Assembly: GCF_001625215.2 (NCBI RefSeq)
Contig: NC_030385.2
Location: 41,813,598-41,877,597 of the forward strand
DNA: 64,000 bases
Source: Daucus carota subsp. sativus
Lineage: Eukaryota; Streptophyta; Magnoliopsida; Apiales; Apiaceae
Reading direction: 5' to 3'
Shown here: positions 21,401 through 47,630 of the stretch, one piece after another
Layout of the letters: each line of letters opens with the position of its first letter
How positions within the stretch are numbered: the stretch's first letter is position 1
Translations under genes and position numbers: made by a program
Notes under the pieces: model-generated
The model's database searches: none
The model's input: only the letters and a program-made list of their open reading frames with translations
What the model was told of the DNA's origin: nothing

Positions 21401-21482
21401 ACGAAATAAAAAGAGAGAGGATGTGTAATTACCGAGCAATTTGGTGTAGAAATGGTTGGGCACGTCGGAGAATCGCCGCCAT
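6459..21482 (-). CDS. WHY2: WHIRLY2-type single-stranded DNA-binding protein (eight exons)
   Basis: Exons on the minus strand: 21433-21482, 21175-21260, 20987-21084, 11984-12076, 10712-10806, 9629-9702, 8800-8888 and 6459-6572. All have GT-AG borders and join in frame to 232 residues, close to Arabidopsis WHY2 (about 238). The N-terminus ([17 protein letters not shown]) is rich in Arg and Ala and lacks acidic residues, like a mitochondrial presequence. The hallmark KGKAAL ssDNA-binding motif is at residues 60-65. It is followed by conserved Whirly blocks such as [22 protein letters not shown] and [12 protein letters not shown]. Whirly proteins bind single-stranded DNA as tetramers; the WHY2 branch protects mitochondrial DNA from error-prone repair. 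The gene is unusually long because intron 3 (12077-20986) contains a MYB gene cluster on the other strand. A Helitron ends about 180 bp upstream of the start codon, so little native promoter remains next to the gene. Confidence 0.95.
7677..8369. mobile_element. Non-autonomous hAT-like element in WHY2 intron 7
   Basis: The right end reads GAGCCGGCCCTG, the complement of a CAGGGCCGGCTC terminus typical of hAT elements, and the left end carries the decayed match GTCCGGCTCAAC. Flanks GATAAAAG (7669-7676) and GATAAAAC (8370-8377) form an 8-bp duplication with one mismatch. The interior is AT-rich and non-coding. It lies in the intron between exons 7 and 8 of the WHIRLY2 gene. Confidence 0.65.
9209..9571. 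mobile_element. Candidate MITE in WHY2 intron 6
   Basis: The left edge reads GTGCCCGTTTGGGTGAACTGG, and the right edge reads as its imperfect inverted form (CGCCCAGGCAAACAGGC). Inside are the words ACTTATGGCTTATAGTGACTT and AATTTTATATTATAGTTGACTT, common in a plant MITE class that ends in a GCCCGTTTGG word. Target duplications are not clear. The spacer near 4912-5100 looks like a decayed relative. Confidence 0.45.
13527..13720. mobile_element. Stowaway-type MITE, copy in repeat unit A
   Basis: The inverted ends CTCTCTCCGTCCC and GGGACGGAGGGAG are flanked by TA on both sides, as in Stowaway/Tc1-mariner MITEs. The interior is partly self-complementary (TTTTTCACGCATTT with AAATGCGTGAAAAA). It sits at the same relative place in all three MYB repeat units, so it predates the duplications. 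This copy is about 35 bp shorter than the other two. Confidence 0.85.
13771..14052. mobile_element. Small insertion found only upstream of MYB copy A
   Basis: Comparison with the equivalent positions upstream of copies B and C shows about 280 extra bases here. The ends are imperfect inverted repeats (GGTCGCGCTCAAGAGAGAACCA against GAGTCATGTTCAAGGGCGAACCA on the other strand). A TTCTGCTGCAGAACCCT word occurs twice inside. It is most likely a non-autonomous DNA element. Its exact borders and target duplication are not clear. Confidence 0.55.
14335..14342 (+). promoter_or_regulatory. TATA box of MYB copy A
   Basis: TATAAATA lies in a CCATCCCTATAAATACCAGCTC context conserved at all three copies and sits 64 bases upstream of the start codon, which fits a short leader. 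Confidence 0.75.
14406..15417 (+). CDS. R2R3-MYB transcription factor, copy A (subgroup 1-like)
   Basis: Exons 14406-14514, 14621-14750 and 15027-15417 encode 209 residues. R2 has tryptophans at 9, 29 and 49, and R3 has F62, W81 and W100, the usual plant R2R3 pattern. Words such as [16 protein letters not shown] and [18 protein letters not shown] point to the MYB30/MYB60/MYB96 group, as do the two intron positions. The N-terminus is about ten residues shorter than family members because the usual CCDK-x-G-KKGP stretch before R2 is missing. The tail is unusual: [13 protein letters not shown] and APSF-x-PGREGF-x-YP repeats rich in Pro, Ala and Phe. Sequence-specific DNA binding is expected; targets are unknown. 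The gene lies antisense inside WHY2 intron 3. A TAG at 14761 falls in intron 2 and is not a premature stop. Confidence 0.87.
16203..16433. mobile_element. Stowaway-type MITE, copy in repeat unit B
   Basis: TA-flanked element with ends CTCGCTCCGTCCC and GGACGGAGGGAG, nearly identical over its length to the copy at 18629-18859. It marks the 5' part of repeat unit B as C-like. Confidence 0.85.
16765..16772 (+). promoter_or_regulatory. TATA box of MYB copy B
   Basis: TATAAATA in the same conserved context as at copies A and C, 64 bases before the start codon. Confidence 0.75.
16836..17846 (+). CDS. R2R3-MYB transcription factor, copy B (hybrid of C and A)
   Basis: Exons 16836-16944, 17051-17180 and 17456-17846 have the same lengths as in copy A and encode 209 residues. 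The MYB repeats are intact. Exon 1 begins [10 protein letters not shown], like copy C ([10 protein letters not shown]) and unlike copy A ([10 protein letters not shown]). The end of exon 2 and most of intron 2 also match C, whereas the tail in exon 3, including the VPAPALVYR and APSF-x-PGREGF repeats, and the 3' flank match A. A donor at CCG/gtatcg must be used to join LLGNR to [11 protein letters not shown]. An unspliced read-through of the second exon would end at TTCTACAGTTCC...TAC-TAA and lacks half of R3. Function as for copy A. Confidence 0.87.
18629..18859. mobile_element. Stowaway-type MITE, copy in repeat unit C
   Basis: TA-flanked element with ends CTCCCTCCGTCC and GGACGGAGGGAG at the same relative place as in units A and B. 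Confidence 0.85.
19187..19194 (+). promoter_or_regulatory. TATA box of MYB copy C
   Basis: TATAAATA in the conserved CCATCCCTATAAATACCAGCTC context, 64 bases before the start codon. Confidence 0.75.
19258..20143 (+). CDS. R2R3-MYB transcription factor, copy C (shorter tail)
   Basis: Exons 19258-19366, 19464-19593 and 19870-20143 encode 170 residues. The R2 and R3 domains are intact and nearly identical to the other copies; LPGRTDNG replaces LTGRTDNG. The tail differs. It lacks part of the VPAPALVYR repeats and gains [17 protein letters not shown] small indel in the word AATGCATGTACCAGGACGTGA then shifts the frame, so the protein ends with APNACTRT about 40 residues early. The old reading frame ([10 protein letters not shown]) continues in another phase after the stop. 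The DNA-binding domain should work; loss of the tail may change regulatory activity. Confidence 0.84.
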
Positions 21483-21663
21483 GTTTTTAGGGTTTTACCG
21501 CCTCTCAGGGGTTTTGAGGTGCAATACTCCTTTTCGGGGAACACGATTAGAAGCGGTAGTTTAATCAAATCAACAAAATTTTAATTTAGAGAAAAATAGT
21601 CTTCCGGACACTTATTTTCTTAATAATTTTTTATAGACAGGTACTTTAAGAAAAATATAATTA

Positions 21664-21692
21664 CTAGTATTTGTGCCCGCTCCGCAAGGGCA
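21664..21692 (-). other. Helitron 3' terminus (hairpin plus CTAG)
   Basis: On the minus strand TGCCC (21692-21688) pairs with GGGCA (21678-21674) around a nine-base loop. Six bases then lead to CTAG at 21667-21664, followed by host T. This fits the rule that Helitron 3' ends carry a short hairpin about ten bases before CTRR. Confidence 0.85.
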
Positions 21693-22164
21693 AGTAAAAT
21701 GTTTCTTAAAAAATATGTTTATATAAATTTAATGTGATCTAAATAAATGTAGGAAAAACGCTTTTGTGTATATATTTTAATGTGATATTTGTTGATTTAT
21801 GTAAACCTCTACTTGAAATTAAATTATGTAAAAGGTACTGGTAGATTAATGTTCTAATTTCATAAAAAATTGTTTGTGAGTTAATATTTTTTTTTAAATT
21901 TCCCAATATATTCGACTGTGGCTACAGGAATTTAGAATATTTCTGCACTTCCGCCCTACATAGTAAGGGGCCAGAGAATAATTACCGCATAAAGTAGCAT
22001 TGGGCAGTGTTATTGATTAAAGTCAATGAGTTAATGCTCTTTAAACCTCACCTAAATTGAATCATAACCCCCATTTGTGAGCTCTATCTCTATCATCTTC
22101 TCTCCCAATTTCTTGTTTGCATGCAGGTAGAAGTTCAAAACAATATAATTTTTTGTATGCTGTA

Positions 22165-23753
22165 ATGGAGTGCTCTGGGGTTATTGTGGAGAAATTCATG
22201 AAATTTCTTACTGCTGATGACACTAAGAAGGATGAGATGGTGAGGTTCTTACTCCTATGTTTTTTGCATGTGCTGATTTTTATAGTTTCGTCGGTTTGAT
22301 ATGTCTTTGTTATGATTTGTCTTTTTTTAACAGAAAGTTTCTACTGAGATTCTGAGGAAATATGGCTCAAGGATTCAACCATCTTTCTTTTTAAAATTTC
22401 GTAATGGATATGAAAAAACCGTTGTCTTTAACGAAGAGACGGGAACTTTTTATGGGCTTTTTTCAATATTCTACGATTTCAATTTGGAAGGGGGTGAGAT
22501 GCTGCTTTTTGAGTTCAATGGGTCTCGTGATTTCAATGTTTTTGTAATAGGGAAAGACCTAAGAGAAATTGAATATCCTAATATAGTTCACTACATGCAG
22601 AAGAAGCGACCACGAGTGGGTATGAGTCTCTTTTCAATTTTCATTTTGTTAGTTTGATATCCTAATGGGTCCTGCATTTTCGTTGTTAGTTTGATTTCTT
22701 AATTTTGGGTATGTGTTATTTTATTTCTGTCAGTCTCTGTGCGCAATGGCGGTCTGAAATTTGTTCACATTGTGAGGGATGAGGATCCCTTGTTTGATGA
22801 GTGTGTAAGTATTCATTGTTCCTGTTGTTCTCCTTATGGAAATGAGTCCTGTTTTTTAAATTTAAGAAAGCAGTGTCCTATTTCTTTTCGTAAATTACAC
22901 ATGATTTAATAGTTGTTATTTTAGTACTCGAAATGTTTCATGAATTGTAGGAGCCTCCTTATTCTTTTAAGAAAGCACTCCCCATGCTCCCTGGATATCA
23001 AAGTTTCATCTTCAGTAATGGGAAGAAGATAGTTGGTGGATATAATCATGGAAGAGAAAAATTTCACAGCCTAAGGAAGTTTTGCGCCATTGTAGGCCTT
23101 GAGAATTTCAGGGAATTTAACGTGGTTTTGTTCAGTTATGAGGAGAATGGTGTGAGCACTGTATCTGTCTTTGATGACCTCTTTGTGGAGTTTATTTTTC
23201 CTGGAACACCAGTGTCAATGGGTATAACTTTATTAATTTTTTGTTGTTGTCAGTTTGTATAATTTATGAATTTTGACATTACATAAACCGTGTTGTATTT
23301 GTGACGTAGGGCTGAACTCAGAGAATATTAATGTACATCATCGTATTGAGATCAATGTGCAAGCTTGTCACATGTACAAATACAGTTACGGAGTGATACT
23401 TACCGAACTCTTTGGTTTGTATTTTTCTATTTCCTACTGTCTTTGCAAAATAGAATTATGCAATATGACATGAGTTGCATTGTGTTTTCATATAGGATGT
23501 ATCGACTCAATATGCTGCTGTTACAAATGTTTGGAGCAAGAAAGATTACATAAGTGTTTATTCAGGGGATAGGGCGTGGAAGCTGCAGGTTAGGACACGG
23601 CCTGGCAACTTAAAGCGTACGACGATTATGGATGGGTGGATCCAGTTTAGAGATGACATGGGTTTGCAAGCCGGTGATGTTATTGTCCTAGAGTGTACTC
23701 TAGCTTCTTTCCATCATTTCTCTGTTGGTGTGTTGAAGAATGAGGTTGCCTAG
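22165..23753 (+). CDS. Multi-B3-domain (REM-like) protein carried within the Helitron
   Basis: Proposed exons are 22165-22239, 22334-22619, 22734-22804, 22951-23221, 23310-23392 and 23496-23753, for 347 residues. Three B3-like segments are visible. The first is VEKFMKFL to VFVIGKDL. The second, in exon 4, has the LRKFCAIVGL and VVLFSYEE blocks. The third, in the last exon, has DRAWKLQVRTRP and the diagnostic DGWIQFRDDMGLQAGDVIVLE. B3 domains are plant-specific DNA-binding folds, and REM proteins often carry several. Exon 5 is the weak point. The donor at 23393 keeps frame but drops VILTELF, which looks like normal B3 sequence; the longer donor after TTTG shifts the frame. So either the short splice is used or the third domain has a one-base lesion. 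It faces the RPA-like genes and lies 500 bp inside the Helitron 3' end. Confidence 0.76.
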
Positions 23754-24148
23754 CTGAATATCATGTATTAACTACTTTCATCCTTTAAAACCTGTGTTTA
23801 AACTAATTGGTTATGTTTAATGTAGACTATCAAATATGGATTCTGTCTAACTTCTGATTGCTTGAGACAGAGTTATATATTTTTAAAATTTATAGGCTAC
23901 CATATGGAAATATAATATATCTGCCTGTTACATAGATTACTGGAATACTGATAATAGATTAGAGGTACAATCGACTGAGATGACAAAATGAACATGTTTC
24001 ACATTTTAAAGTACTTGGGGAACATATAGATAGGAAGGGTAACATAGAACCATCGTGTCGTTGAATGCAGGTCCCTTAAAGTTGTGAGATGTTGTCGAGA
24101 TGAATGCTTGTTCCAGAACTCTGTTAAGGCAGAAGTGAAAATTAGTGG
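23754..24148. other. Spacer between the convergent B3 and RPA-like genes
   Basis: About 400 bases without a gene. It presumably holds the 3' untranslated ends of both convergent units. No repeat or conserved signal was recognised. Confidence 0.4.
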
Positions 24149-26108
24149 TTAGTTTATTGTAACTGTTAGAGTTTTTAGACATTGGAGTTTTACCTGTGCT
24201 TGTGAAATTTCTGTTGCTTGCTGGACTGTGAATTTCCTTTCCTTCATTTTAGGAACCATGTACGATCCTTGGTATATGTCATTGCCAATATACATCTCCT
24301 CCTTTTCTTTAATATTAAATTCCCTTATTTCAAGCTTGATAGTGTAGATTCCCTTTTCCATTGTCTTGAAAGTAGCTGGAAACTTACCCTTCTCCTGTGT
24401 AGGAACAAAATAAATGTTGGTAATATGTTTTGTTTGAATGATGTTTGAAGGTTTAAACTGATATGTACCTCCTCCTCCATTTCAAGAACAGTCTTGCCAA
24501 ATAGTTTTCGAATAGGTCGATCCATCAATAAAATATTGATCTCCCCGGTTTCATCCTTGGCAACGATGATGATAGCAAACCTAACAGATTTAGTGTTAGT
24601 AACTAATACTTATGTGTCTAAAAGTCATAGTAATACCTACTTCTTATCTGGGTATGGTACAATCCTGTTGTTGCATTTGCTGCATCTGTAAGTACTCTCA
24701 ACTTGATCGATTTGCTTGTAGCATGTGGTACATTGTGAATAGTACCAAGGGTTTGATTCTTGAACTGCGGTTATCTGAACTTGACAGATTACCTCTTCCT
24801 GTGGGAGAAAGTGCACATTATTTAGTATTTGATATGAGTGCACATTATTAGATGTGTATATTAACACTATCTGCACCTCAATATAATCTTCGCCTAATGT
24901 CTTGATTTGTTGTATAGTTTTCAGCTCCGGTTCTTTTTTGGTTTGTACTATGCTTCTGTGCTCTATCTTGAACTCTGGTTGAGTACTCCTGCAAAAGATA
25001 AGAGGTTATTTAAATTTTGTATGAATGACTACATGAAATCTATAATCAGAGAATTGTAGTGACTATGCCTTACATTTTGCGTAACTGTGCAACAATGTGG
25101 TGGTTGTAGTTGATGTAGTAAGCCGTTGGTGAGAAGTTGCACATATCATATTCATCTTTTATATAGCATAAAACCAAAAGAAAAGCAGGATGAACACAGG
25201 GGTGTTAGTGAAACATGTTTATTTTAAAGACAGTGGGCATACCCTGGAAAATACCAACTTTCCCCGCAGCGATAATAACAATCAAAGGTTCTTCATATTT
25301 GGAGGAAGATATGTCAGACTGAAAGCACTCGGCCAAATTGTTCCAGAGGGTGATATTTAAGTAATTTCTGCAACATAACACATATGTAATTTTTTTTACA
25401 TGTAATGTAAAACATCTTGTTTTCAGAAGTTACCTCCCATCAGCTATCGTCATTCTTATCTGGTATTTATCGACTCCTTGTTTAGTGTGAACCAACTTTA
25501 GATCCTCTCTTCTAGTGACAACTCCCACAACATCTGGATATATTAACATGTAATTAGTTCTGCAATAACTAATAGCATAAGTGGTGTGTATGTTTAAATA
25601 CCAGCCAAATATTTAGTCTGGTTTGCGAAGCTCTTAATGTCACCCAGATCGCAGAACTCAAAACAATTTTTTGCTATGAAATAATCATTGTCGCCAAGCT
25701 CTTTTGCTCTTGTTTGGTTTGTAAACTGGATTTGTCTATCAGTCGTAACACATCTCCATTTGTCCGTCTCGGTGTAGTTCTTCACCTGAAAATTTGAGAT
25801 TGCATACATCTTGCCGAGAATAAACACTTTCTGCAGCTTCTCCATAAGAAAAAGTGGTACAAAAGCTTCCATCCTAACATTCTAAGTGTGAAAAGATAAA
25901 AACTTAGTAGTGTCAAGTGTTTGAAACATAAATATAAAAATTTCTTGTGGTTGAAGTGTACCTTTGCATCGAGTAGCAGCAAATTGTAACCTTTATAAGG
26001 TTGTCCAGTTATAGTTACTCCCCTCCACTCTCGAATAATTCGGACCTTCACCTTCCAGTCCGTTCTTCCTGAATGAACATTATTTAGATATTCGTAGTTG
26101 TTTGACAT
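24149..26108 (-). CDS. RPA70-like single-stranded DNA-binding protein, Helitron copy B
   Basis: A multi-exon gene. The first exon starts MSNNYEYLNN at 26108 and ends in LLLLDAK. Later exons give an OB-fold with MYAISNFQVKNY (near 25800), a second with DVVGVVTRREDLKLVHTKQG (about 25530) and NYLNITLWNN, and then a zinc-ribbon OB-fold with CTTC and CSKC pairs (24637-24800). The last exons carry DRPIRKLFGKTV and a C-terminal OB strand region ending near SQAQ. This is the order of the DNA-binding domains of replication protein A large subunit. Plant Helitrons often carry such genes, thought to coat the ssDNA intermediate. The paralogue at 26501-28697 lies 5' of it on the same strand. The exact 3' end (stop at 24149 without a further intron) is uncertain. 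Confidence 0.83.
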
Positions 26109-26500
26109 TGCTTCCTGAATAATTCGAAGCTTTAGTCGAAGCTTAGTTTTGTGAGATGATATTGCTTAGTGTTTCTACAGTACTTCGTTTACTTAGGTCT
26201 GATTTGTATTAATAGGCAGTGAAGCTTTATTTTGATATGATAGGGAACCATATCATTTAATGGTTGCTATTAACTTCTGAAGCTGTTCGTACGAATTTAG
26301 TTGGACAGATTGAATTTAAAAGCTTCCCATGCTGCAAATACCAACTGGTTCACTGGTACTAACATTGTGTACTCTTCAAAAATAGTTTAGAATACAAACG
26401 ATTGTCAACATAGCTATAACAAAAGAGTACAATAGAATGAAAACCAAAATAACGCATGCTGCAGCAACCATAAATAAGGACCATCTACCAGGTGCACATG
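26109..26500. other. Spacer between the two RPA-like genes
   Basis: About 390 bases that should contain the promoter of the copy-B gene and the 3' end of the copy-A gene. No other element was recognised. Confidence 0.4.
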
Positions 26501-28697
26501 TCAAGCCTGCAAATAAAACAAAAAATCAGTATATTGTTATTTGTATCATAATGGCGATTTACATGACATTTATATGAAGAACTTACAATTTTGGTCTTGA
26601 CATTCTTCAGCTTTGGTTCAGGACTTTTCTCTGGTAAATCACACGGAACAACATCAATTTTTTTCCTTGCTCTACTTTTGTTCGTTGACTCTCCAGTGGC
26701 AGGACTCGTATTGTTCAATGTAGTCCTCGACTGAAAATAATTTCCAATGTGAGCATGTGTTATCTGGAATAATCAATTTGCATGGTTAACTTACATTTGA
26801 AATTTCAGTTTGTTTTATCAGGACAGAGTTTGTTTCTGGTGGATCATCATTGGCTGATATCTCCTCATCCGCAGATACTTTTACAGCTGTGTACACATTT
26901 GAACCTCCCACCACATTCTCCTTTGTGACATGAAGGGTGAAATTATAAGTTCTCTTCTCAAACTGGAGCAGTATGGGTGGGAATTTATCACCGTCACCAA
27001 CCTGGTTTTTAAAATGAGCAGAGTGCTTTATCAAGATTCACCACTATGGTCAATTATATACATATAAAACATAGCGTGAATTTTACCTGTGTTTCATCAG
27101 CAAGAATATCGTAAACCGTTTTGCCAATGAAACGAGTCAGCTCGTCATCAGTGAAGAGGATGGGGACGGTACCAGTGTGGTCAGCGCATAACATACAAAA
27201 CTCATACCTGCATATCATACATTCAGTATTAAATAAATGTGGTAACATTTAGAGGTATGTCCTGTTGTATTTATGTTCATACTTGCGGTCAGGATAAGGC
27301 TTAAATTTACCACACTTCATACATTTGAATCGTTTCTCCACCAGCTGCAGGTCTTGATCACACGGTACACAATAATTACTATACCAACCCATACTCTTAT
27401 CAATTTTCTTCACATGTAGTTTGGCAATGACTCTTTTCTGTTCGCAGAAAGGTAAACATATTAGTAGTAATGAAATTGTATTAATCTGGTAAACTATTGA
27501 TCTATAAATTGACCTCTATGTATTCGTCCTTCAGACTAAGGAGCTCTTTGACATTAAATTTCGGAACCTCGTCCTCAGCTTCTTCTATGAAATCAATTTG
27601 ATAGAAAGTTGATTCCGCAAGACTGCAACATGATCATTCAAATTACACAAAGCCTTATGAATTCATAACAACTGATAATATAAAATTTCTAACCTTGTAC
27701 GGATTCTTTTCACACAATGGTGATTGTTGTTGAGGTAGAATCGTGTTGCGGGGTAATTAGCTAAACTAACCTCGTCTACAAACAGGAATAATATTGTTAC
27801 TGGAAAAGTAAAAAATGTATAAACACAATGGTGAAAACGTTAGTCTCTAAAGTAACTACCATTCCATTCGCTAATCTTTCCACTTGCTATTATGATTATG
27901 ACAGGCTCCTCTTTTTTCTGTTCAAATGCTTCGAGAAGAGTATCCCCAAAAGCATTAAAGAAAGTAACATTAAGATAAGACTTTCCATCTGTGACAGTGA
28001 ACTTGACAATCGACCCATTGATGCCATCTTTTGTGTACTCAATCTTTGTGGGCTTTGCATCAACAACACCTACCACATCTACCAAATAAATAAAAGAAGA
28101 TTACTTTTTTTTTCCATAATTAATTTAAGTGGATATGTGACACTTTGCATACTAATGTAACTGTCCAAAAACTCACCAATAAGGAAGCGATTGTCCTTTT
28201 TCAAAGCGTAAACATCATCCAAACAATACAGATCAAAACTGAGCGGCTGAATTTTCAAACAGGTGTCTACAACTTTAGAGCAAAGAGTATCGGTGTTGAA
28301 GTAAATATGTTTCCCACTCCTAACTGCTCTATAGGTTTCATCCCCTTTGTAGAACTTCACAGAGAAATTAGATATTTCATAAAGTGCTCCTTCCTCCAAG
28401 TCTTTCTTAAATTTATCAGTTAGGGTAGCAGCGATGAAAGCATGGATCCTATGATTCTACATAACAGTAAAATTTTAACAATTATTTTGGCATTTAAAAA
28501 GTACTGACGCAGTTTTTAATGTCTAAAATAGGTTTAAGCTAACTTACTTCATCATCGATAAATACAACATTGAGACCTCTGAATTCTTTGGTTTGCTTAT
28601 TAATTCCTTGCCATATAGCTTGAGCGCGTACAGAAATGGTCCAGTCATATCGTGAATCGTTCAGGGCAGACAAACTGGAGTGCTCTATGAAAGACAT
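26501..28697 (-). CDS. RPA70-like single-stranded DNA-binding protein, Helitron copy A
   Basis: Exons read on the minus strand include 28548-28697, 28177-28456, 27860-28078, 27694-27775 and 27514-27622, followed by zinc-ribbon and C-terminal exons down to about 26501. Junctions checked by phase join without breaks from the MSFIEHSSLS start. OB-fold A has LYEISNFSVKFYK. OB-fold B has DVVGVVDAKPTK and YLNVTFFNAFG. OB-fold C has a zinc ribbon with CVPC and CMKC pairs followed by LFTDDELTRFIGKTV. The tail is rich in Lys, Ser and Pro (SPEPKLKNVKTK), and a six-base last exon giving Ala-stop is inferred. It is only distantly similar in sequence to copy B, so the two are old paralogues rather than a recent duplication. 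Expected role: ssDNA binding during rolling-circle transposition. Confidence 0.83.
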
Positions 28698-29573
28698 GTC
28701 TATCAGTGTGCAGCGTGAATTAAATCCTGAAAGATTGACATCAAAATCGTGTTCAGTTTATGAAGAGGTTATGTAGATCTGTTATATATGAAGCAATAAA
28801 GACAGTCGTACCTTGTATGGGAAGCTTGAAGATTTGGTGGTTGAAGCTGGAATGGAGAGTATTAAAGCTCCTGTCAGATCTATGCTATGAAGACCACACA
28901 AACTGTTGATAAGGGGACATCTTATCTGCTAGCCACTTTTGGCATTATTTTTTAAAAGAAAGGCTAGTTTCAATGTCTAAACACTACTTTGGAAGCTAAC
29001 ACTGCTTTTGACAAAACTGTGCTCTTCTTTTCTTCATTTATATTTATATAGTATATGATAACACAGCCACATTAATTGTATTTATTAATTATTGGACTTA
29101 AAAATAAGGGCGCCAAAAAAAACACAAATGTTCAAATTTTGGTGTACAAAAGCCTGTATTATCTTAGAGTATTTTAAGTTCCTATTTTAGATTTATTACA
29201 CACCTCTCAAATAGTGATCATGACTTGAATAGAAGTGAATTTTAAGTCCACACGAATCGTGTTCATGCTCATGTCACGGTATTGAATGGGCAGACCCCTT
29301 ATGGCAAATAATTTAACCACAAAAAATTACATATGCAGACCATGAACAAAACATCTGTACTGGTAATTTTAGATGACAAAAGGGTACCATTTAAGGTCCA
29401 TTACTTCATTTACACTCTGAATTCAATATAGGATAATTCAATATAACAGAGTCACAAAAATTAAACAATGCAAGACTCTGTTTTCAAGTTTCACTTGCAA
29501 AGTACCAAAAGTGTACCATGTCCTTTTAGGTTGTGGAACATACAAAAAACCAAAAGGATGAATGCAAGACAAC
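28698..29573. other. Helitron spacer between the Rep/helicase 3' end and the RPA-like gene
   Basis: About 875 AT-rich bases that should contain the promoter of the upstream RPA-like gene (TATATTTATATAGTATATG near 29040). A short 5' leader exon near 28700-28730 is possible. No further gene is seen. Confidence 0.4.
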
Positions 29574-32206
29574 CTAAGGACATGGCAAATTGTAAAATAC
29601 TTCTTTATAGACTACATTTGCAGTTATATTAGTAGTCAGACCCATTTGAGATTCAACAAAAATCCGAAGGCCTTCAGGAGATGTGACGCGGCTGATAGCA
29701 ACATACAATTGGCCATGGCTGAACACTGGTTTTGGCAGATATAATCCAACTTTCTCTAGGGACTGCCCTTGTGATTTATTGATTGTCATTGCATAGCAGA
29801 TTTGCAAAGGCATCTGTTTCCTCATCAGCTTGTACGGCAACTTCGAATCTGTTGGAAAAAGTTCCATTCGAGGGATAAAGTGTCTAGTGCCAAGAAAACT
29901 CCCGGAGATTACTTCACATTGAACACATTGAGGAAGTAACTTCGTGACCATCATCCGTGTTCCATTGCATAAACCAAGCGTTTGATTAAGATTGCGCATG
30001 AGCATAACGACAACACCAACTTTCAGTTTCAGTTCATGGCTAGGCAAACCAGGGACATTTAAGGAGTTCAAAAATTCGGGAGGAAAACTATTATTAAGCT
30101 CAGTCTCTGTACCAGGATAGTCTTCTGCATTATCAACACTATAATATGATTGTGATTCACCGGGAATTCTATCCACAATCAAAGCATTGACATGAGCCAC
30201 TGTGTTGTTTGTGGGAGTTAGAATTGCTCGTTCGCTCAAGTACTTGGGATCATTATAGTGTTCTGCAAAATCAGAAAATGTGGTATCAATCATATCGGCA
30301 ATACAGTTCTCATTACCTATATTGCAGAATTCAGATGGGATTTCAATATCATCATCAAACTCTCCATTCGATGCTTTCTGAATCTTCCCGTCTCCTATAT
30401 CAAGAACCCACTGGGCAAACTTTTTCATGCGCTCAACTTCACCTTCGTTGCTTCCTCTATTAATACGCATGTTTTTGACCAAGGTATGGAGACTAACATT
30501 ACTCCAAAGTTTTGATCGACTGATTCCAGCAGCAACAACCTCACTGCGGTTAGATCCGGGTATGACCGGTAGAATTTGTCGAAAATCACCACCAAGGACA
30601 ATGTTAATTCCACCAAAAGGCAAGTGAAAGCGCCTAGGCTCAACAGACTTCATGATATCACGCAGAGAACGATCAAGACACTCGAACGCAAATCGGTGTT
30701 GCATTGGCGCTTCGTCCCAAATGATGAGGCTGGTACGATGCAGCAACTGTGCAATATCTGACTGCTGAGCTATGTTGCATGTAGAACAATCATCCAACAT
30801 AATAGGAATCTTAAATCTGGAGTGCGCTGTTCTGCCACCTGGCAGCAGAGTTGCAGCAATACCGGACGAAGCAACAGGAAGAACTATCAAGCTCTCGGAG
30901 CGCAACTTTGATATCAAGGTCTTCCATAAATAAGTCTTCCCACAGCCTCCACTTCCGTAAACAAAAAAAAAACCACCATCAGTCTTCTGTAGTGAATCCA
31001 TTATTGCGTTGTACACCTGCAATTGTTCTTCATTCATTTCAGAAATTAGAGACTTGTGCTCCTCTGCCATCAGATCAAGATTGTAAGATGTCTCCTCAAT
31101 GATTAGATTATTCAGACCACAGTCTAAATAATTTCTAGGCGGCTGAGGCATGTCATTGAAATCGTTCAATGACTTCCCTATAGACTTGGGTAGCTTGTGA
31201 ATTTCTGAAAAGAGAACACAGAGTAATATTACTAAACTAATTGAGGACAGTTAAATTTTAAACAATACATATAACGAAAAGATATAATTTGAACATTGGA
31301 GCACAAAGATATTACCTGCAAGGGCAAAGTACTCTATTTGTTTCTCATTCAACACCAAATTGGGATTCCCACTGACTTTTCTTCTAATTAAAACAATATC
31401 ATCAGTCATGTGCACAGAATGGTCATTCCATAATTTCTTCAAATCAGTGACACGACAATTCACCATGATGTGTACAAAAAGTTCACGGATTTGGGGAGCT
31501 AATCCACAACTTGAACACTGCTGCAGGACTTGGTGCCATTCATTATCATCGTCAAGGAGTCCATACTCTTTACAGGCCTCCTGAAATGTTTGACACAGCT
31601 TGCCATTTACAGTCCGCAAGTCTTTAAACGAAGTAGGACCTCGGACCTTAGTCAGCAGCAAACGCAGGTACCACAACTCACCAGAACTGTGATTAGTGTA
31701 GAATAGTCTCCCAATTTGTACACCTCGCTTTCTCACATTCCAAACTGTATCAAGTTCATTCCACACATAATGTCTAGGGATCTCGTCGTATGTTAATTTC
31801 CTAGCTTCCGGATCAGTAGCATTCAGTGCAAAAAAAGCTTCCAACTGACTGCTTTTTTTTCTCTCCCTTGCAATCACCTTTGGTAATGGATCACTATCTT
31901 TGAATGTGCAACTTCTTTCCCCTGGTAAATGAAATGACAGACGCTGAACAGAGTGTGTACGATAGTGTATGTTAAAACCAAATATGCGATAGGCTGCCTC
32001 ACATGCACATATATATCTACCATCAAAATATTGGTTAATCTCATCTACAGGAGAGTCTTTACTGGACTCGGCAGTATCCTTTTTTCGGCTCTTTATCTCA
32101 ACTGTAGCTCGATCATGACCTTTGAGACAGTACTTGAAGATGTATTTGATACTACGTGTATGACAACATATCTCAACATTTATATGACATTGAAATTTCA
32201 CCAGTA
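29574..32206 (-). pseudogene. Helitron Rep/helicase, 3' half (tyrosine motif and PIF1-type helicase)
   Basis: Two exons, 31316-32206 and 29574-31204, joined in frame through an AG/GT pair (LA-G to EIHKLP). The first begins right at the LTR border and contains SIKYIFKYCLKG, the tyrosine pair (Y-x3-Y) of the Rep nuclease. It continues with the conserved middle region (RYICACEAAYRIFGF, LPGERSCTFKDSDPL). The second is a PIF1-type SF1 helicase with Walker A GSGGCGKT, Walker B IIWDEAPM, VLGGDFRQILPVI, and the C-terminal MTINKSQGQS and YVAISRV motifs. The helicase motifs look intact, but the nested LTR separates this half from the HUH motifs, so no full-length protein can be made unless the LTR is spliced out. 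It is called a pseudogene for that reason. Confidence 0.92.
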
Positions 32207-35200
32207 TGTGACAGCCCGAGAATCCGGGGGCCTGGATTCTGACGTCACCACATAAAACCCATTTTTAAACACTTTCGAAAACCTGTAAATTTTTTTTTTT
32301 ATTTTTTTTTTTCAAAAGATAATAAAATCAGAGAATTTAAAACCCGAAAACATTTAATAAAAGATTTGAAAGACGTTAAATAAAAGATTTAAAAGAGAAC
32401 ATCTTTACCCCCAAAACAACAGGATCGCTTCCAGGTTACAGTATTGAAATTAGAATCTACCACTATTATTACACAACATCTCTTACCAAATCAGATCATC
32501 TTCGATAAGAAGAATCACTGTCAACTATTCCAGCTATGACTTACACTTGAATCTCCCTCGCACAGCTCTAGCTTGCACCAACCTCATCAACTTTCCTGAA
32601 CACTCCTCGACCACTGGATCCTCAACTCTGTCTCCTCGCCTAGCATTAGCCTTACTCACCATCTCAATCAATCATCTCATCTTTAAGCCTTTCTGAAATG
32701 GTTAGAAAGGAATAGCAAGGGTGAGCAACAATGCTCAGCAAGTAATAATAAACAATGATAGTTCTGAAATGATATAATAGAAGTTCACGAGTTCAAGATA
32801 TAAAAGGATTCAACCTGAGTTCACGAGTTTAGGTATTGTATAAGAAAATCACAATACCTTGCAGCAATTGAATACTGAGGAATTCAATCTTTCCAAAAGA
32901 ATTATTGAATTGGACTATCACATTTTAATTAAAACCAAGGTTAGGCAGCTGATCAGTTCCGCACTAACCCCGAGCAGGCCCCGCCATGCTCTATCACTGG
33001 ATCCAAGGCACTCATTGGCCTAACATGACCACGAATCTGGTCCACAGGTTTATATAAAAACAATAATCCAATTCTCTAATTCAATTCAAGAAGCCAATGT
33101 AAATTAACAGAACATCATCATAAATATCATCAACAACAGAATAATTCCAATTCAAACTTTGATAATAATCTATTCATAAATCATGATCCATCATTTCATA
33201 AATCACAGTTCAGGAAATCCTCAACTATTCAGTATCCTCCATTATCGGCTAAGCAACTGAATTTAGCCTGCTAAACCAGCATGACAATGGCGGGTTGAAT
33301 AATCAAGAAGATCCCAATTCATTCAAAGCTCTAACTATCACTGAGCAACACATGCTTCAATGACAATCTGAACTTCGAATTAATTTGTAAAAACGGAAAT
33401 TCTTTAGAAACTTGAAGATTAGAAAGAATGGGTCAAAATACTCGCACTTTCGAACATTGAAAAGAAAGGTATGAATACTTGAAACATATACCAAAGGAAT
33501 GGATCAGAATATTTGCAATATATCCAAGAGAAAGGTTTAGGATACTTGCAACACATCAAAAGAATGAATCAGAATATTTGCAATATATCCAAAAGCAGGG
33601 TGCAGGATACTTGCCTTAAACCTGACTCCAGTCTCATAGCTCAACCTCATCTTTCCACTTTCACAATCTATGCATCTCGTAATCTCTAGATCATCTCTAG
33701 CTATACTCTATTCGCCACATCGCTTCGCTTACTCGATTCATCCCTTATTCGCTTTGCAATACCATTCCGACTTTCTGACGTCTTCGAGCATACACGTCTC
33801 GTCCAAATCCTTTACGAGAATAAGATAATACTATAGTCACTAAACAATATATCGCATATACATATCACGTATATCGATACCCACTTATATACCCCTTTAC
33901 CTATCAAATATCACTTAACACATAATCATGCTTTGACTCTACCATATAATCATATCATTCTCCACATAGCATATTATCAATTAAATATAATATAAATCTT
34001 ATCGAAAATCCGACATCGTCTCGTCTATTTATTAGACTATCCACCTGTTATCCTATTTTGTCCAACAACCAATCAACCAATTCCAATTCCTATAATCCAT
34101 ATGTCCTTATCCAATATTAATCAAATCATGACACTATGTCATATAAGTCATTTATCACGTATATAATATCAGGAATAGCCATATATATCACGTAGTCATC
34201 AATTAATAACAATCCACTAACATATAATCACGTTAGGCACATTTAACAACAATTATTCACATTCTCGACTCCATCATATTATTATGTCATATTAAAATAG
34301 ACTTTATAAGCTTTCATCTCTCTTTCGTTTCACTCGATTCCGACTTACGAATCAAAAGTTATGACCACAACCGTTTTCTGACTCCGCTCTCAACATATAA
34401 TACCTTACACTGATAGCAGACAACACATTACACATTAAGTCTCCCATCCCAATTGATTTCAAATCAATTCCTGGGTTTAAAATGATTTTTCGGGAATTTT
34501 CTGGAATTTTTAAACATTTTTCGGAATTAAAATCGATAAAAGAATCACTTTTCGGATAAATAATCAAGTTCCAAATACTTGAAATTGGACTTGAAATCAT
34601 TCATAAACAATAATAGAGCCTTGAAAATAATTTAGAAAAATATTTCAAAGCTCGAAACTATTTTTGGGATTTTTAAATCAAAAAGGAATAATTAAATCCA
34701 AATAAATAATCAATTAAAATCAATTAATAATTAATCAAATTAATTAACCAATTAATAATTCAATTAATTGATCAATTAAAATAATTAATTACTAATTAAA
34801 TTAATTAACTAAATAATTTAGATTTATTTTTGAATAAAGAAATAATTAAAACAATTTTCAAAATTAAAAAGAATAACTAAAAGCAATTTTTTTGAAAATT
34901 AAAATACAAAAGGTTTAAATTGTAAAGTTTTCAAAACTTTTGACAGAGGTCAAAAGTGTAAACTGATGAAACTTTGAGGGATGTTTTGTAACAACGGAAA
35001 CCCCAGTATGACTACTTCATCATCTTCACAACTAGGGGGACCTAATCGCAATTTTCGCAGCGGCACCCCCCCAATCGCCGTTGATTCGCCGGAAACGGCG
35101 CTACAGCGCTTCAACACGCACCAAAACCTCCAGATCACAAGATTTTACTGCCAGGAATCTAATCATAGCCTCATAATCCACAACCGATCATCACACATCC

Positions 35201-36746
35201 CGGAAAAGCTTGAAGAACAGCCGCCGGCGACGCTGCGTTTCCAGAACCCGGCGGCTTTTCTTCGATTCCAACACCCTATCTGATGCTACCAACAGATTTT
35301 ACACCTCAAAATACACATGCTAGTACCTTCCAATCATACCCCGAACTACCAGATTACAAACCCCCAATTTCCAATTAAAAATATCCAAGAACACTCAAGA
35401 ACATTCAAGAACACAACTAAATAATCAAACCCACTTTTCTAGGTGTTATGGAACTCAAAAATCAACATATAATATACCAAAACGACGAGAAAAACACGTT
35501 CTACAACATAGAAGCATCAAAACAATCAAACAACCAAGTTTGCAAAAATTCACTATTTAAATCTTAATAATTCGAATCTTAAAGCTTCAATTACTCCCTA
35601 CCTGTGAATCTCAGGTTGTTTTTGATGATTGATTAGAGTTCTACTCTTCGATATCTTCGATTTGACTATTCGCACGCTTGATTCTGACTCCAATAATGCC
35701 TTCAAATCTTCGTTTGATTATGAAGAACACGAAGAACACCGCTCGGTTTCTCTCGGTATTCGTGAAAAGAAACTGGTGAAATGATTTACGGTTGAAAATC
35801 AGCTATAGAAAAGTCTATTTATATTTACAAATAATTGGTACCCCTTTGGATCGTTTATGACATGAAAATACGTATTTAATAGCTTTATATTAATAAAGCA
35901 GGGTCCAATCGGTACTGGTTTTCGAGATAATCATCAAAACGGGGCTTTTTAATCAGTCATTAGTATGCGGGTCCCATTTGCAATTATTACAAGATAAGAA
36001 TTAATATAATAATCAAAATATCTAGTTTCACGCTTATCGAGACAAACTGGATAATTATCAACAATTAAAATACCCGAAAAACTCCGCCGGACCGACTCCG
36101 GGGAAAACCGTACTCCGGATCGAAAAAGTCAAAACACGAAAAGTGTCCGAAATATTCAAATTAGGCTAAAGGTCAGTTTTGTTGAAACTTCCGGGAAGAA
36201 AATTTGCTACCTCGTTACGAGTGAACGGTTTTACGGAAGTCAAATAATTAATAAATACATATAAATATACGCCATTAAATCCGTAAACCGATTATAAAAT
36301 CATCTAACATTCCATAAATCGATATAAAAATATCCAAATAAACTATATTTTCTCCTGAGCATAAAGAAATTGAAATCTCGCGAATATAAACACATACGAG
36401 CATTCAGCTCAATAAACTAGATAACACAAAATTCACAAAAAAATATATAATAATCACATAATAATCATAAATCACCATAAATAATTAAACGAGCAATACC
36501 ACAAGTAACACTTAGTCACATCCCACATATATTCACATAATATTCATACAGAATTTTCAAAACAATATATGAAAATCAGTTTTAAAAATATAATCATTTA
36601 TCAATAACACAATAACCCGGGGTTTTAAATATAAAACTTTGAAAACTCATTAAACTGGAATAAAATATTAAATCTTATTCCCTTCTTTAAAGAAAAATCA
36701 CTTTTAATACTAATAAAAATATTTTCTAAAAATCCGGGTCATTACA
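32207..36746 (-). mobile_element. Long LTR (about 4.54 kb, probably solo) inserted in the Helitron Rep gene
   Basis: On the minus strand it starts TGTAATGACCCGGATTTTTA and ends CTCGGGCTGTCACA, so it has the TG...CA termini of LTR elements. AGTA repeats on both sides (32203-32206 and 36747-36750), a 4-bp target duplication. A TATAAATA box (35816-35823, minus) and a splice-donor-like CACAGGTAGG downstream fit LTR promoter structure. There is no gag, protease or polymerase sequence and no second copy of the ends. The simplest reading is a solo LTR left by recombination. The size and TGTAATGACCCG end suggest a Ty3/gypsy chromovirus such as the Del/Tekay group, but that is inference. Open frames inside (e.g. 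34981-35283) are not supported. Confidence 0.75.
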
Positions 36747-39700
36747 AGTAAGTCGCGGTTATACGGAACAACCCACTTATTGTCCAAATGATGTTCTTTT
36801 CCAGCTGTAGCCTTGGTAAAATCTTTCTTCCGACGTCTATAAATTGGAAATCCAGATTCATCAAATGTTGTGGTGGCGGCATATCTATTTCAACACAATT
36901 TTTAAATCATCAATACAATGTGGAACGGAAGAAAATGCACTAATACTTAATATTGATACTCTTCAGTTTCACTAAATACACATATACATTAGTCAAAATG
37001 TTGCAGTAACCAAATATGTAACATTGTAGTCCTGTAAAATGATTATGCAGCAAGTAAAGGATTAAAATATGTATGAGGTGCAATCAGGTCTTGCTGTTTC
37101 AACAACTATAAAACTGCAACCTCATGATAATATATTAAAAAAACTCTAAACCATTCCGTATTATAAACTGGTAACTAAAAAGGCATGCAATTAAAGTCTA
37201 AATATATTAAACTTGTAACTATAAAACCTATAATTCAAGTATGGAGATAGGAGATTACAAAGGTCCTGAGGCCAATTTATATGTTGCCCCCCCTGACTAT
37301 AAGCCGTCCTGCTTCTCTTGCAGGTTGCAATTTATCACCAAAATTTTAATCTATCACAATAGTCATTTTCATGTTTTCAATTTGTCTGAATTTCAGACCA
37401 ACCCCTTACATTATTAATAAGTTTAAAATTAATATATAGCCATCAAAAGCATCCTACAATATTTTTATGATAATAAATTGGTATTTTAAAATCATGATTA
37501 TATTGTGAAATGGAAGAAATGCATTAAAATAAAAAACTTACTTTTTGGGATAGTGTCTTATACACTTGTAGTCTTTCATGCATGGTGATTTTGGATTTTC
37601 AGATCCACAGGGACCATGAATCATGAATGACTGGACAGCAGCAAAACCGGCTGGATCTGCAATGGGATCAGGAACCTCTGCACATACAAACTTGTCTACA
37701 TTTGCTTGAAGGTATTTCTTCGAATCAGAACTTAACCATATTAACATATGGACATGAGGGAGTCCTCGTTTTTGAAACTCAACTACATACATCACTGCAT
37801 AGATTAAAGAAAATCCCAAAAAATTAAAACAATGACATTGAAAATTAGCACATAACAGAACAGCTGCTTACTTATGTTTAATACGGAAATTACCTCCGAT
37901 ACATTTGCCAAAAAACTCTTTGTTCTTTATCTCATCAACTAATTGGTCGAGTTTTAATTTAAAAACTCGGGCAATAATATCGGGTGAATTCTGAGGAAGA
38001 CAATGGGGCAGCAACTTCATCATCTCATTTATCTCGTCCCAAAGAGGATTGGTTGTCATTGTCAAGAAAATGTCTGGATGTCCGATGTAGCGACAAACAG
38101 CAAGGGCATCCTGAAAGTTCTGCTGCATATACCTTCTCGAACCAACGAAACCAGCTGGAAGTATGATACCTTTCCCAACACGGGATGCATCTGTATTGCC
38201 ACTACGTAAAGAATCACAGAGCTGTGAATAAAGGTCAGACCGCAGAGTGGTCTGATGAGTACGTATATACCATAATCGAGCCTGTTCAATGGTAGAGAAG
38301 GCATCCACTATATACTGCTGAAATAAACGGCCGCCTAAATGCGGAGTCATGCCTAAGAAAGAGGTGAGGAACTTGCAGTCAAAGAATGATATACCTTGGT
38401 TCACAAATCAACTAAATGTATACATTGGAAAACTGAAAACTACAAACTGTAAAATGAAGAAGTAAAAGGGTAATATACCTTGGTTCATGCGCACCTGAAG
38501 CTTATACGCGTAGTACTCCTTCTGCGTAATTAGAACCCTTTTCCTTTTTTTCTTATTTTCTCCTGTACCATATGCCAAATGTATGTGAAAACCATCATCA
38601 CCGTGGGGAAATAAAAGGGGATATTGAAGCGCCATAATCTTTGGATGAATGTCACTTATCCTTTCCAGACCCTCTTTTTTGGAATGAATAACAATGTCCC
38701 GATACTGAGAATTATTATCTTGGTCACCGGCCATGATTCCAGCAACATCATCTGCAGGCATTACATGGTTCTCCCTCCCACTTTCAGCTCTAGATATTTT
38801 CAGCGTGATTTCAAAATCAGAAACTTTATCCTGCTCAAATCTATCACGATGTGATCTGAATTGCTTTACCAACTCATTGGTTTCATCAAGCATTTTCATT
38901 AATCCATCAACAATGGCAGCATCAACTTCACGACCATCCCTCACATTAATCCATTTCATTCTATTGGAGACTTCATTGCTGGTGTCGTAAATATATAACT
39001 GGCAAAACTTGGGGTCATCACCATCATTAGGAATAAGGGAACCAAAGAGATGATGGTTCTGTCCGTTCAATCTGTATATGTATGGAGCTCCACCACAATT
39101 TATCGAGTGGTCCATCCTACCACCAGTCGAAGTGAAAGAGAACAATGCGTTATATATTCGTATACCGTCTTTAAATTTTGGACCAATCTTCTTGTCATTA
39201 TACAACTGCCACAGGTATGAAGGAGTAGGCTTTTCCTTTGGAAGCCGTATTTCACCATTAGCACAACATAATGAAAACAGTGGCATTCCCTTTGTCACAT
39301 TTTTGTTCGTACGTTCCTCCTTCCACATTATTGCATCACATTTAGTACACTTGACATTAGGTGGACCCAGGCTCGCATAATCAGAAGGAACTACAAAAAA
39401 GATATTGATTACACGTACAGAAACATAAAATTACAGAGCAAGCCAAACTGATTATGCAGATTAAGCAGAAAGAAAACTACACACCTTTAGCTTTATTTGC
39501 CATTCTTTCTTTGCACCAGGGATCTTCATCATTAAGAAACTCTGCATTCAGGTTGTCATATGGTTCCTTCTGTCATCAATATTTTAAAATAAAGGAACAT
39601 AACTGCACAAATGTTTAGGCAAGAAGGGGTCTAACCATCATGTTCATACAAATCTGAAGAATGATCCACGTTGACATTCACTCGCGAGAACTCTGTAATT

Positions 39701-41694
39701 ATTTACAACAACGTATCCATTTAATAAAGAAAACATACAATGGAGAACTTATAAAGTTTGTCCATGTACATACCAGCATCCTCCAGACAATGATCATTAT
39801 GTGTAGTATCCTTTCCCATGTCAAAATTCAAAGCTTGAGGAATGCTTTCAAAAGACTTCTTCTTCTTACAATCCTTCTCGACAGTGGTTGATGATCCAGG
39901 GGGTGAAGAAACTTAGAAGGGAAAATAATACATAATTATATAGAATTCAGAGTTATGGTGATGGACACAAATATGTGGGAAGACATTAACTTACAAACAG
40001 AACACAAAGTAGATTTTGGTGTTTTCTCAGCAAAGCTTTCAGAAATTAAGGTCTTCAGTCTAGTATTTCTAACACCTGAAAGTAGAAAGATAAGGAAGCT
40101 GGCAAGTACAGGAAACTTTACAGGAGAACATGCATCATAAAATATAATATACTGACAAATATGACAACCTATATTATTAGACGCCGAAGGTGCGATAAAC
40201 TTCCGCTTGCAACCATCCAAGGTACGTGATTCTTTTAACTGTGGACTATGATAAGTCTTCTTCACCTCAGCCGGTTTACCTTTGTTTGCAGTATACAAAG
40301 CTTGCTGCTGAATCGATATATTTTTTCCCAATGTCTCATTTAATGGATTTAATGGATGACCTATTGCAGATAATATGTTTGTCAAGTCTAAATATATTTA
40401 ACTTTATTTCAGATAAACAATAAAACAGAGATATATATTCTAATACCATTCAAAACCGACAAAGGTTTACGCTTAAGAAAAGCTTTAGGTTCCCTTTTCG
40501 AAAATGGCGTGTCAAAAACATCTTCCTTCCGAGACATCGCTTGATTTTGATGCTGAGGACTAATATTCTCTTTCTCCGACAAAACAGCTTCATGACAAAC
40601 ATTTAAAAGTCAACAGCGGAAGTAAAAAAAAATTATAAATGCAATGTATGATTGTAAAAAAAAAATACATACATATGGAGCTGAGAGAAGGTCGATTTGC
40701 GACTTCTGAACATCCATAAGGCTTCATCATCGAAGTTCCGTAATTAACTGTCAAAAAAAACTATTGTAGCACTTATCCAAAGTGTGAATGTGAATGTAAA
40801 TGCAGAAGACGGAGAAAAGAGTAAAATGACTCACAAACATCAAATAAAACAGGAGTTTTGTTTTTTGAAGAAATGAGCTCCGCAGGAGCTTTCCTTTTCT
40901 TCAAATGCAGGTCTGTTACTTCATCTAAAAGGCAGAAAATTAATAAGAAAAACCACAGACATTGATAAAGCCATACAAATAGACATTAACACTCACAAAC
41001 ATTATGACATTGGGGTAGTGAAGCTGAAGTTTTGTTCAAATCATCATTGCAAATTTGGACACCCTCTGTACCACAAATACAATGAAATAGCATTAACAAT
41101 TAAATATACATTTTTTTCATGATTCCATAAATAAAAAAAGCAGCGCAACTAAACTATTACCTACAGCGGGAGAGGGAGAAATGTCATGGGAGTTTTGTCG
41201 TATCTTCATCATCGATAAATCATAATTAACTAAATATACACATAAAAAAACAGTGAAGCAAAGTAAGAGTGTGGACAACATATACAAAAATAAAGGTAAA
41301 TAAAAACTCAATACATTAAATAAAAGCAGACAGAATAAATAACTCCACCTACCAACATGAACAACAATAAAACGAATTAAAATACTTTAAAATAAATGAA
41401 ACAAATCTATTACAGGAATATTAATTACAAACACAAAAACTTACAGACATTGAAGAGTGTAGACCCGGGGTCCTTAAATTTGTCTAAAAAACGGTTGTCG
41501 AAACCCATACGTGCTCCTTCCAGATAAGCATCTCTCACCTAAATGAATGAAAATGAATGTATGTCAATAAATATGTCCACACGTGTATGAATGAATGAAT
41601 GGCAGTTAATATGTCCACCCCTGAATTAATTATGAACTGTTGCTGAATCAGTTAAAGCAAAAGAAGGCAAGCAATTAACCTGGTTATTCTCCAT
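36747..41694 (-). pseudogene. Helitron Rep/helicase, 5' half (N-terminal region and HUH nuclease motif)
   Basis: The gene begins with a five-codon exon MENNQ (41680-41694), joined to VRDAYLEGARMGFDNRFLDKF near 41540. Several short Lys/Ser-rich exons follow (41190-39500). Then come a long exon with a CTKC zinc-like pair (CTKCDAIMWKEE) and LQYPLLFPHGDDG (about 38470-39390), and an exon at 37868-38395 with the Rep motif DIFLTMTTNP. The exon at about 37542-37797 has VVEFQKRGLPHVHMLIWL, whose HVH is the metal-binding HUH motif. The last exon (36751-36884) ends YNRDLL at the LTR border, where reading resumes at 32206 with VKFQCHIN. These are the standard parts of a plant RepHel, which nicks and unwinds DNA in rolling-circle transposition. 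No break other than the LTR was noticed, though the small N-terminal exons were not all resolved. Confidence 0.88.
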
Positions 41695-42010
41695 CAATAT
41701 CGCGAAAACGGAAAGAAGAGAGTTGCTCAGTGGAAAGCGGATGCGTGACGGATTACAAAACCACGGAGCAAAGCTGCGCTCCACCGATATGGAGGAGCTA
41801 ATTTTAATTTTAATTAACCTAATCCCAATGTCGAGCAGGAGTTTTGAAGAGATGACTTTGGTCTGAACTGGTTTGAATTAGGAGATTTTGGGGGATTAGG
41901 AGGAAGTAAGTAAGTGGTGAGGAAGAAGCCACGTGGCCAGTGGCCGTATAAACGTAATAACAGAAAATGTAGAGGGACAAAGTCGACTTTTCGCAGGGAA
42001 AAAGGCAGTA

Positions 42011-42030
42011 GGATTTATAAAGTAGAGAGA
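42011..42030 (-). other. Helitron 5' terminus
   Basis: The minus-strand start is TCTCTCTACTTTATAAATCC, preceded by host A at 42031. TC followed by TCTACT/ATA-rich sequence is the usual plant Helitron 5' end. Confidence 0.82.
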
Positions 42031-44108: not shown

Positions 44109-44982
44109 AGTTACTACAAAAGATTGTGAACTGAGAAAAATTGAGAGTTTGAGAGAAATAAGTGAGAATGATGAGTAGAATGGCTGGGAGTACAAGTATA
44201 TGCAAGAGGAGTGGGATATATGTAAAATCCTAATGTTGAATGTTATTGGCTAGAGATGATTGTATGTGAGTTGTGATTGGTCCATGTGGAAACTGCTGGA
44301 TATCGATCTGGAATATCTAGGGGATGTGTGGCCCTCAAATTTGTTCCACTTTTTTGTGGTGATGGTTCACTTGGAGCACACAAGTTCTCTTTTTTGTGGA
44401 CTGCTTTATTTCTTGCTTCAACTTCCTTTTATATATTACTCCCGACTGTCATGCAAATTTTACAGCAGGGTAAGCTTATCTTGTTTGGGTTAAAAATAAT
44501 CAATTATTAGTAATATGTTTATCGAAAAAACGGAAACAAAAAATGAGTCGGTTTTCGTTTTTTCATTTAATGACACCATAATATATAAAAAATTCAGGAT
44601 TAAATCATTTAATAATTATTCGACTTAAAATATATCTTGACGCACGAATATTTTACTCCCTCTTATTCTTTTTACTTTGCCCGTTTCATATGTCGTCACT
44701 GTTCATGACACGAGACAAATTACTTATTTATGTCTAATCTATAAGACTAAATATAGTGATGAGTGATCTTATTGGATTCGTAATTATAAGTACTTTAATA
44801 CGGTGAAATTTATTTATTCAATACTAATACGAAATTAAAGATATTAATAATGTGTTGGCAAACGTGACAAAAGCAAACGAGAAAAGTATTTAGGGACGGA
44901 AGAAGCAGTGATTTTCGAACCGAGGAAAGAATGATAACATGATGAAACACGGACAGGTATTAAGCATCAGTACTTACATATG

Positions 44983-47590: not shown

Positions 47591-47630
<40 letters not shown>

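Follow-up and report, generated by a model that had tools for sequence, protein, structure and literature searches.

The window, that is, the whole 64,000-nucleotide stretch of the carrot (Daucus carota subsp. sativus) genome analyzed here, contains a whole Helitron, probably of the RPA type, on the minus strand (21664..42030; 20,367 bp, counting a 4.5-kb later insert), whose bounds are given by ends conserved in copies. The 5' end, TCTCTCTAC, begins at 42030 (A|TC) on the same strand, as judged by comparison of ends among copies, and its 3' terminus CTAG (21664..21667, minus) was placed by an end scan and copy comparison. The end scan also located a subterminal hairpin with arms TGCCC and GGGCA at 21674..21692 (minus). 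Between these ends, the minus strand encodes RepHel, with a Helitron_like_N (Rep) portion (37868..38407; PF14214, E 2.2e-41) and a PIF1-type helicase portion (29574..31250; PF05970, E 2e-87), and two RPA-like genes whose limits are approximate. RPA-like gene 1 (24149..26165, minus) was recognized from open reading frames, from Pfam matches below the cut-off (Rep_fac-A_C, E 0.003; DUF223, E 0.079) and from a block conserved at other loci. RPA-like gene 2 (26485..28900, minus) has a DUF223 match, also below the Pfam cut-off (E 4.5e-4), and recurs at other loci; its comparison with solved structures gave no useful match. The element thus has the features by which Helitrons are recognized: a 5' TC, a 3' CTRR with a subterminal hairpin, and Rep plus a PIF1-type helicase. 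A two-copy tandem repeat of a 38-base unit, the copies being 79% alike, lies close to where the RepHel gene begins (41552-41627).

Queries with the 3' and 5' ends found 20 and 39 matches in the genome, respectively, and we inspected 17 of the former (those reaching the terminus) and 16 of the latter. CTAG closes 16 of the 17 inspected 3' ends and ATAG the remaining one, and all 17 are directly followed by T. The TCTCTCTA start is present in every one of the 16 inspected 5' ends, 14 of which are directly preceded by A. The window Helitron itself is flanked by A and T, which fits A/T insertion without target duplication. Flanks of the 3' ends mostly differ between copies, the exceptions being the pairs L050/L052 and L041/L045, which look like duplicated regions. 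The YYAG-plus-hairpin site at 21664 is the sole one in the whole element by a one-strand scan, the chance rate of such a site being about 0.004 per 500 bp (500 shuffles); the end scan set to longer stems overlooked even the true 3' end.

The RepHel gene of the window copy is interrupted by a solo-LTR-like insert of 4.5 kb (32207..36746, no strand assigned; TGTGACAGCC...GGGTCATTACA), which has AGTA at both sides and is not element sequence. A sibling of the element on contig C2 lacks this insert, because its helicase and Rep portions are 1.2 kb apart, versus 5.7 kb in the window. Several features of the surrounding DNA were also recorded. Tandem repeats of MYB-like exons occupy 15010-20143 (plus), with Pfam Myb matches in three stretches scanned, and a Whirly-2-like gene lies at 20858-21490 (minus; StWhy2, E 1.6e-7, one exon). 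The start codon of the latter is, by eye, about 180 bp from the Helitron 3' end, and its promoter region borders that of a B3 gene described below. Beside the Helitron 5' end there is a chlorophyll a/b-binding protein gene (42890-44110, minus; PF00504, E 2.3e-14, one exon), and 47100-47880 is an AT-rich region in which 'gttgcaaa' units recur and a long palindrome encloses a TA run (by eye).

Just inside the Helitron 3' end, on the plus strand and in convergent orientation with RepHel and the RPA genes, lies a B3 gene (22165-23753). The sequence-only reading had placed it between the RPA-like genes and the 3' hairpin, opposite in strand to the genes of the element, and this was confirmed, the hairpin being at 21674-21692 and the PIF1, Rep and RPA coding regions all on the minus strand. 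Our model of the gene, checked against two copies, has six exons and encodes 347 amino acids with no internal stop. Exon 1 (22165..22239) is followed by exon 2 (22334..22619), which encodes a first B3-like segment, exon 3 (22734..22804), exon 4 (22951..23221), which encodes a middle segment, exon 5 (23310..23392), and exon 6 (23496..23753), which encodes a C-terminal B3 domain and includes the stop codon. The exon 5 donor is unlike that of the copies: the full-length copies on C2 and C5 have GTG|GT and the window GTG|AT, with an in-frame GT three bases upstream. A distant copy, L090, has its donor at the same place as the C2 and C5 copies, and the other splice sites of the window gene agree with those two copies. 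The B3 gene of the window looks damaged and may be non-working in its present form; with a split RepHel and an altered splice donor, this Helitron copy is probably not autonomous.

The window protein matches Pfam B3 (PF02362) with an E value of 2.7e-8 and 34.1 bits (curated cut-off 30.1). Three B3-like segments had been proposed for this gene from its sequence, and they turned out to be unequally founded. The third (exon 6) is well founded, as all 12 aligned family members have a Pfam B3 match (E up to 1), and exon 6 of the window alone gives E 6.4e-6 and 26.5 bits. The first (exon 2) is fairly founded, with a match in 6 of 12 members at the same threshold, the window's own segment not being among them. 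The middle one (exon 4) is weak, since none of 13 members has a Pfam B3 match (E up to 1), and it is B3-like solely through its likeness to the first: comparison of profiles with hhalign gave a probability of 84.7% for middle versus first, 0.1% for middle versus third and 27% for first versus third. These alignments leave out L013 and L030 (stop codons), L014 and L034 for exon 2; L030 (stop) and L029 (partial) for exon 6; and L011, L030 and L032 (broken or partial) for exon 4. Among solved structures, the nearest to the exon 6 profile is VRN1 (4i1k), a weak match (E 0.048); profiles of exons 2 and 4 found nothing useful there, and the whole protein only chance matches.

To examine whether the B3 gene belongs to the element, we compared copies that have the same ends. 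The C2 sibling (C2:21240305-21255828; 15,524 bp, 96–97% identical) has both ends and a full-length B3 gene, 97% identical to that of the window and carrying a 1-bp deletion. This sibling seems to have landed within the 5' end of a different Helitron, to judge from G000:C2:21240219-21240305 and from its own 5' flank. A third copy (L011), on C5 like the window, has a full-length B3 gene of 79% identity with a 2-bp deletion and an altered end. Six shorter copies have the same 3' end and keep the first part of the gene at 78–82% identity, namely the first two exons, which are often broken. In these short relatives (C8:21.58 Mb, C8:21.65 Mb, C8:5.98 Mb, C1:1.57 Mb, C3:13.09 Mb and C2:36.09 Mb), likeness stops at roughly one common point within intron 2. 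The 20 matches of the 3' end query cover each of the loci found with the B3 gene DNA. Hence the gene is not single-copy, as there are full-length copies at 97% (C2) and 79% (C5) and six partial ones. Nor does any Helitron end separate the B3 gene from the RPA genes, according to the one-strand scan of the window element; the same scan over 762–1,500 bases upstream of diverged copies found no end, with one poor match at L027. The B3 gene of the window and the sibling lies inside the element ends, is co-mobile with the element and is convergent on the 3' side of its other genes. The sequence-only reading would have separated the gene from the Helitron if it were single-copy and syntenic in related species lacking the Helitron, or if an end lay between it and the RPA genes; neither was observed.

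A second family tells a similar story. Five L090-like B3 genes (the query included), situated on C2, C6 and C7, are 99–100% identical over 1,501 bp, and a sixth copy is 97% identical. The spacing from helicase to B3 gene, measured where a helicase was scored (five of the six copies), is 6,307–6,348 bp in all five, that is, in four of the copies at 99–100% and in the one at 97%. Near-identical copies at a kept helicase spacing indicate that the B3 gene has moved recently together with the element.

We then analyzed the relationship between the B3 family and Helitron genes throughout one genome (441 Mb, 11 contigs). B3-family clusters were obtained by joining protein searches with the window gene (117 of 459 candidates scored) and with a distant member (127 of 472); Helitron genes came from searches covering 78 of 337, 150 of 344 and 150 of 385 candidates, together with 14 of 51 matches of a further search. 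Four exon matches belonging to the window and sibling copies did not enter the cluster counts, at the cost of no cluster. At least 108 B3-family clusters were identified, 65 of which have a Helitron gene within 15 kb, none being found for the other 43. With respect to the nearest such gene among the 108 clusters listed, 58 cases are downstream convergent, 6 upstream convergent and 1 upstream same-strand. Random placement, which leaves family descent unmodelled, gave a mean of 0.42 and a maximum of 3 downstream-convergent cases (1000 trials). As a control, 91 other PF02362 clusters showed 4 downstream convergent, 1 upstream convergent and 3 upstream same-strand cases, and none of any kind for 83. 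All these counts refer to clusters and not to independent events, several loci being recent duplicates or pieces of one element.

Viewed from the helicase side, a convergent B3 gene lies within 15 kb on the 3' side in at least 34 of 89 clusters, and in 3 a B3 gene is arranged otherwise. At 55 of the 89, no B3 gene of the window family is seen within this distance among the matches listed, although some B3 genes may have been missed; thus, B3 is not needed by all helicase clusters. An RPA-like exon match lies 3' of 68 of the 89 helicase clusters within 12 kb, and 31 of these 68 have B3 (both among the matches listed). Among the matches listed, 17 of the 34 B3-bearing helicases are accompanied by a pair of B3 clusters in range, and in 9 of these 17 (e.g., C6:28.51 Mb, C8:16.71 Mb, C7:41.30 Mb and C5:28.41 Mb) one B3 lies at 0.7–1.7 kb and another at 9.7–13.8 kb. 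No Helitron gene was found within 30 kb of L026, and the nearest helicases to L027 and L029 are 22 and 21 kb away, respectively. As a sign of co-divergence, the comparison of B3 with helicase identities is equivocal: rho was 0.48 (P = 0.03) over 20 pairs and 0.28 (P = 0.26) over 18 pairs.

Purifying selection has kept the B3 gene over a long divergence. The six-exon structure is retained, exon by exon, in the diverged loci L018-L031, and L090 has introns 2–5 at matching places, with 34–48% identity per exon. The window gene and the C5 copy share 87.4% identity in their exons and 68.0% in their introns. Computed from exons 2, 4 and 6, or from just two of these for some pairs, dN/dS is 0.146 for the window versus the C5 copy (dS 0.53), 0.17 for the sibling versus the C5 copy (dS 0.53), 0.207 for L026-L034 (dS 0.32), 0.197 for L027-L031 (dS 0.94) and 0.099 for L022-L029 (dS 0.07). 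The window versus the sibling gives 0.95 (dS 0.02), which is neutral, with no visible constraint since their last copying. For the remaining pairs, dS exceeds 1.3 or is missing, and they carry little information.

Phylogenetic analysis of the last B3 domain placed 12 family members in one group (support 96/96), which excluded the 12 further B3 domains sampled from the genome. Ten of the family members have a Helitron gene within 15 kb (none was found for L026 and L035); the domains outside the group comprised 4 from a single tandem cluster, presumed to be host REM genes, and 8 others. The donor gene is not nameable from this tree, because the host REM sample is small (4 domains from one cluster).

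Several known systems can be compared with the carrot element. RPA-type Helitrons have been described from maize (ZmhelB), Ipomoea (Hel-It1), Arabidopsis and rice; according to the available portions of these sources, they encode RepHel with Rep and a PIF1-type helicase, have co-oriented RPA1-like DNA-binding domains following the helicase, end in CTAG with a palindrome and make no target duplication (PMC3288121, PMC9033089). The carrot element has the same RepHel and CTAG end with a palindrome, and putative RPA-like genes 3' of the helicase. However, RepHel and RPA are what the known elements encode in the portions available, other genes in them being captured fragments (PMC6431247, PMC3288121, PMC9033089), whereas the carrot element keeps a complete multi-exon B3 gene in convergent orientation, and two B3 clusters accompany 17 of 34 helicases among the matches listed. 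The sequence-only reading knew of no Helitron family with such content, and among the papers listed from the open-licence literature of PubMed Central we found none that describes a B3 or REM gene in a Helitron; such elements may be present, uncommented, among the consensus entries of Repbase. PMC2688026 and PMC10949715 contain none of the words Helitron, transposon and transposable.

The B3 gene resembles the REM family (VRN1, VDD, VAL, REM12 and REM13) in having several B3-like segments, of which the C-terminal one is best kept. It differs from this family in being transposon-borne, in a middle segment that has no Pfam B3 match, and in forming its own tree group relative to 4 domains from a single tandem cluster, presumed to be host REM genes. 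In Arabidopsis, VDD, VAL, REM12 and REM13 recognize set sequences and recruit Pol IV, and in the models presented in the available part of this source the N-terminal B3 domains pair and the C-terminal ones bind DNA (PMC12270911). The segment conservation of the Helitron B3 gene fits this layout, which is a likeness and not a test.

The combined evidence indicates that the description as a captured host gene was too weak, and that, in its behaviour, the B3 gene resembles an accessory gene that belongs to the element. Because it is spread over many diverged Helitrons in a near-fixed arrangement and under purifying selection, it is very probably a standing, selected gene of the element rather than a recently captured fragment, in line with the standing cargo that had been suggested from the sequence. 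Its near-fixed placement and orientation, together with selection, suggest that the element uses the gene and did not pick it up by accident. Taking all observations together, a long-standing accessory B3 gene of an RPA-type Helitron lineage, which may act mainly on the element, is probably the correct explanation.

VANC proteins of VANDAL transposons belong to another transposon class and another protein family than the Helitron B3 gene, and their targets often form tandem repeats. In contrast, tandem motifs at the Helitron ends are limited to the two-copy 38-base repeat at 41552-41627. VANC is a sequence-specific anti-silencing protein encoded by the transposable element itself, as set out in the available part of PMC5735166, and we propose by analogy that the B3 protein may likewise be a plant transposon protein that acts on the transposon's own sequence. 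Self-directed regulation of the element is therefore put forward tentatively as its main role. The gene would encode a nuclear, B3/REM-type DNA-binding protein, in which the C-terminal B3 domain would bind DNA and the N-terminal segments may pair or bind partners. The target of the protein would most likely be the sequence of the element, where binding to non-coding stretches at the termini or promoters could set transcription or silencing.

We considered other explanations for the association. One is that a single Helitron recently took a host REM gene, which is a passenger in a small family only. Helitrons are known for capture according to the available part of PMC6431247, and the three nearest copies of the gene are damaged, with no constraint visible between window and sibling. 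On the other hand, the same source terms full-length capture of host genes exceptionally rare (PMC6431247), and the same arrangement, with a common exon structure and purifying selection, is seen in tens of diverged loci. The dN/dS values and the counts of cluster arrangements largely rule out a recent capture, which we regard as very improbable. The association might also be merely apparent if Helitrons tend to land beside host REM genes, as B3 genes are numerous in the genome. Such a bias is hardly credible given that side and orientation are near-fixed (58 of 65, among the clusters listed), that the ends enclose the gene, that a spacing of 6,307–6,348 bp is kept in five copies on different contigs, and that the 91 other B3 clusters give just 4 downstream-convergent cases; for the window family it is ruled out by the sibling, in which the same ends enclose the gene.

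Other alternatives concern what the protein does. Other plant transposons use an additional protein that binds DNA, e.g., TNPA of En/Spm and MURB of MuDR, and the B3 gene adjoins the 3' end, so the protein might aid transposition directly by binding subterminal DNA and loading or guiding RepHel and RPA. This is rather unlikely, as the same genome has helicase loci with no B3 detected and no bound site is known; a protein that helps RepHel and RPA to find or handle the ends would be less likely than one that sets transcription or silencing. It is also doubtful, and somewhat more so, that the gene acts chiefly on host genes, favouring or manipulating the host, and not on the element. B3/REM proteins are host transcription regulators, and the B3 promoter of the window element, as read by eye, faces the promoter of the Whirly-2-like host gene. 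Nevertheless, conservation over many unlinked Helitrons most simply reflects the element's own use, and no host target is known.

Returning to an accessory gene that acts mainly on its own element, a more speculative extension is that the REM-type protein is an element-owned targeting factor in the host REM-Pol IV silencing system. Bound to the sequence of its element, it might repel host REM/Pol IV complexes, an anti-silencing action like that of VANC for VANDALs, or it might limit how many copies the element makes; some of the REM genes of plants would then have arisen in conflict with, or from, Helitrons. We regard this as a long shot. Helitrons are known for shuffling gene fragments. The accessory gene would represent a second kind of cargo beyond such fragments: a complete, spliced, host-type gene that is selected in many Helitrons. 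Since the young families contain copies that are 99–100% identical, binding, expression and mobility are directly testable. With such a gene, Helitrons would gain a protein of the transcription-factor type whose host relatives steer small-RNA-guided silencing, and some of the genes counted as REM in plant genomes may be transposon genes.
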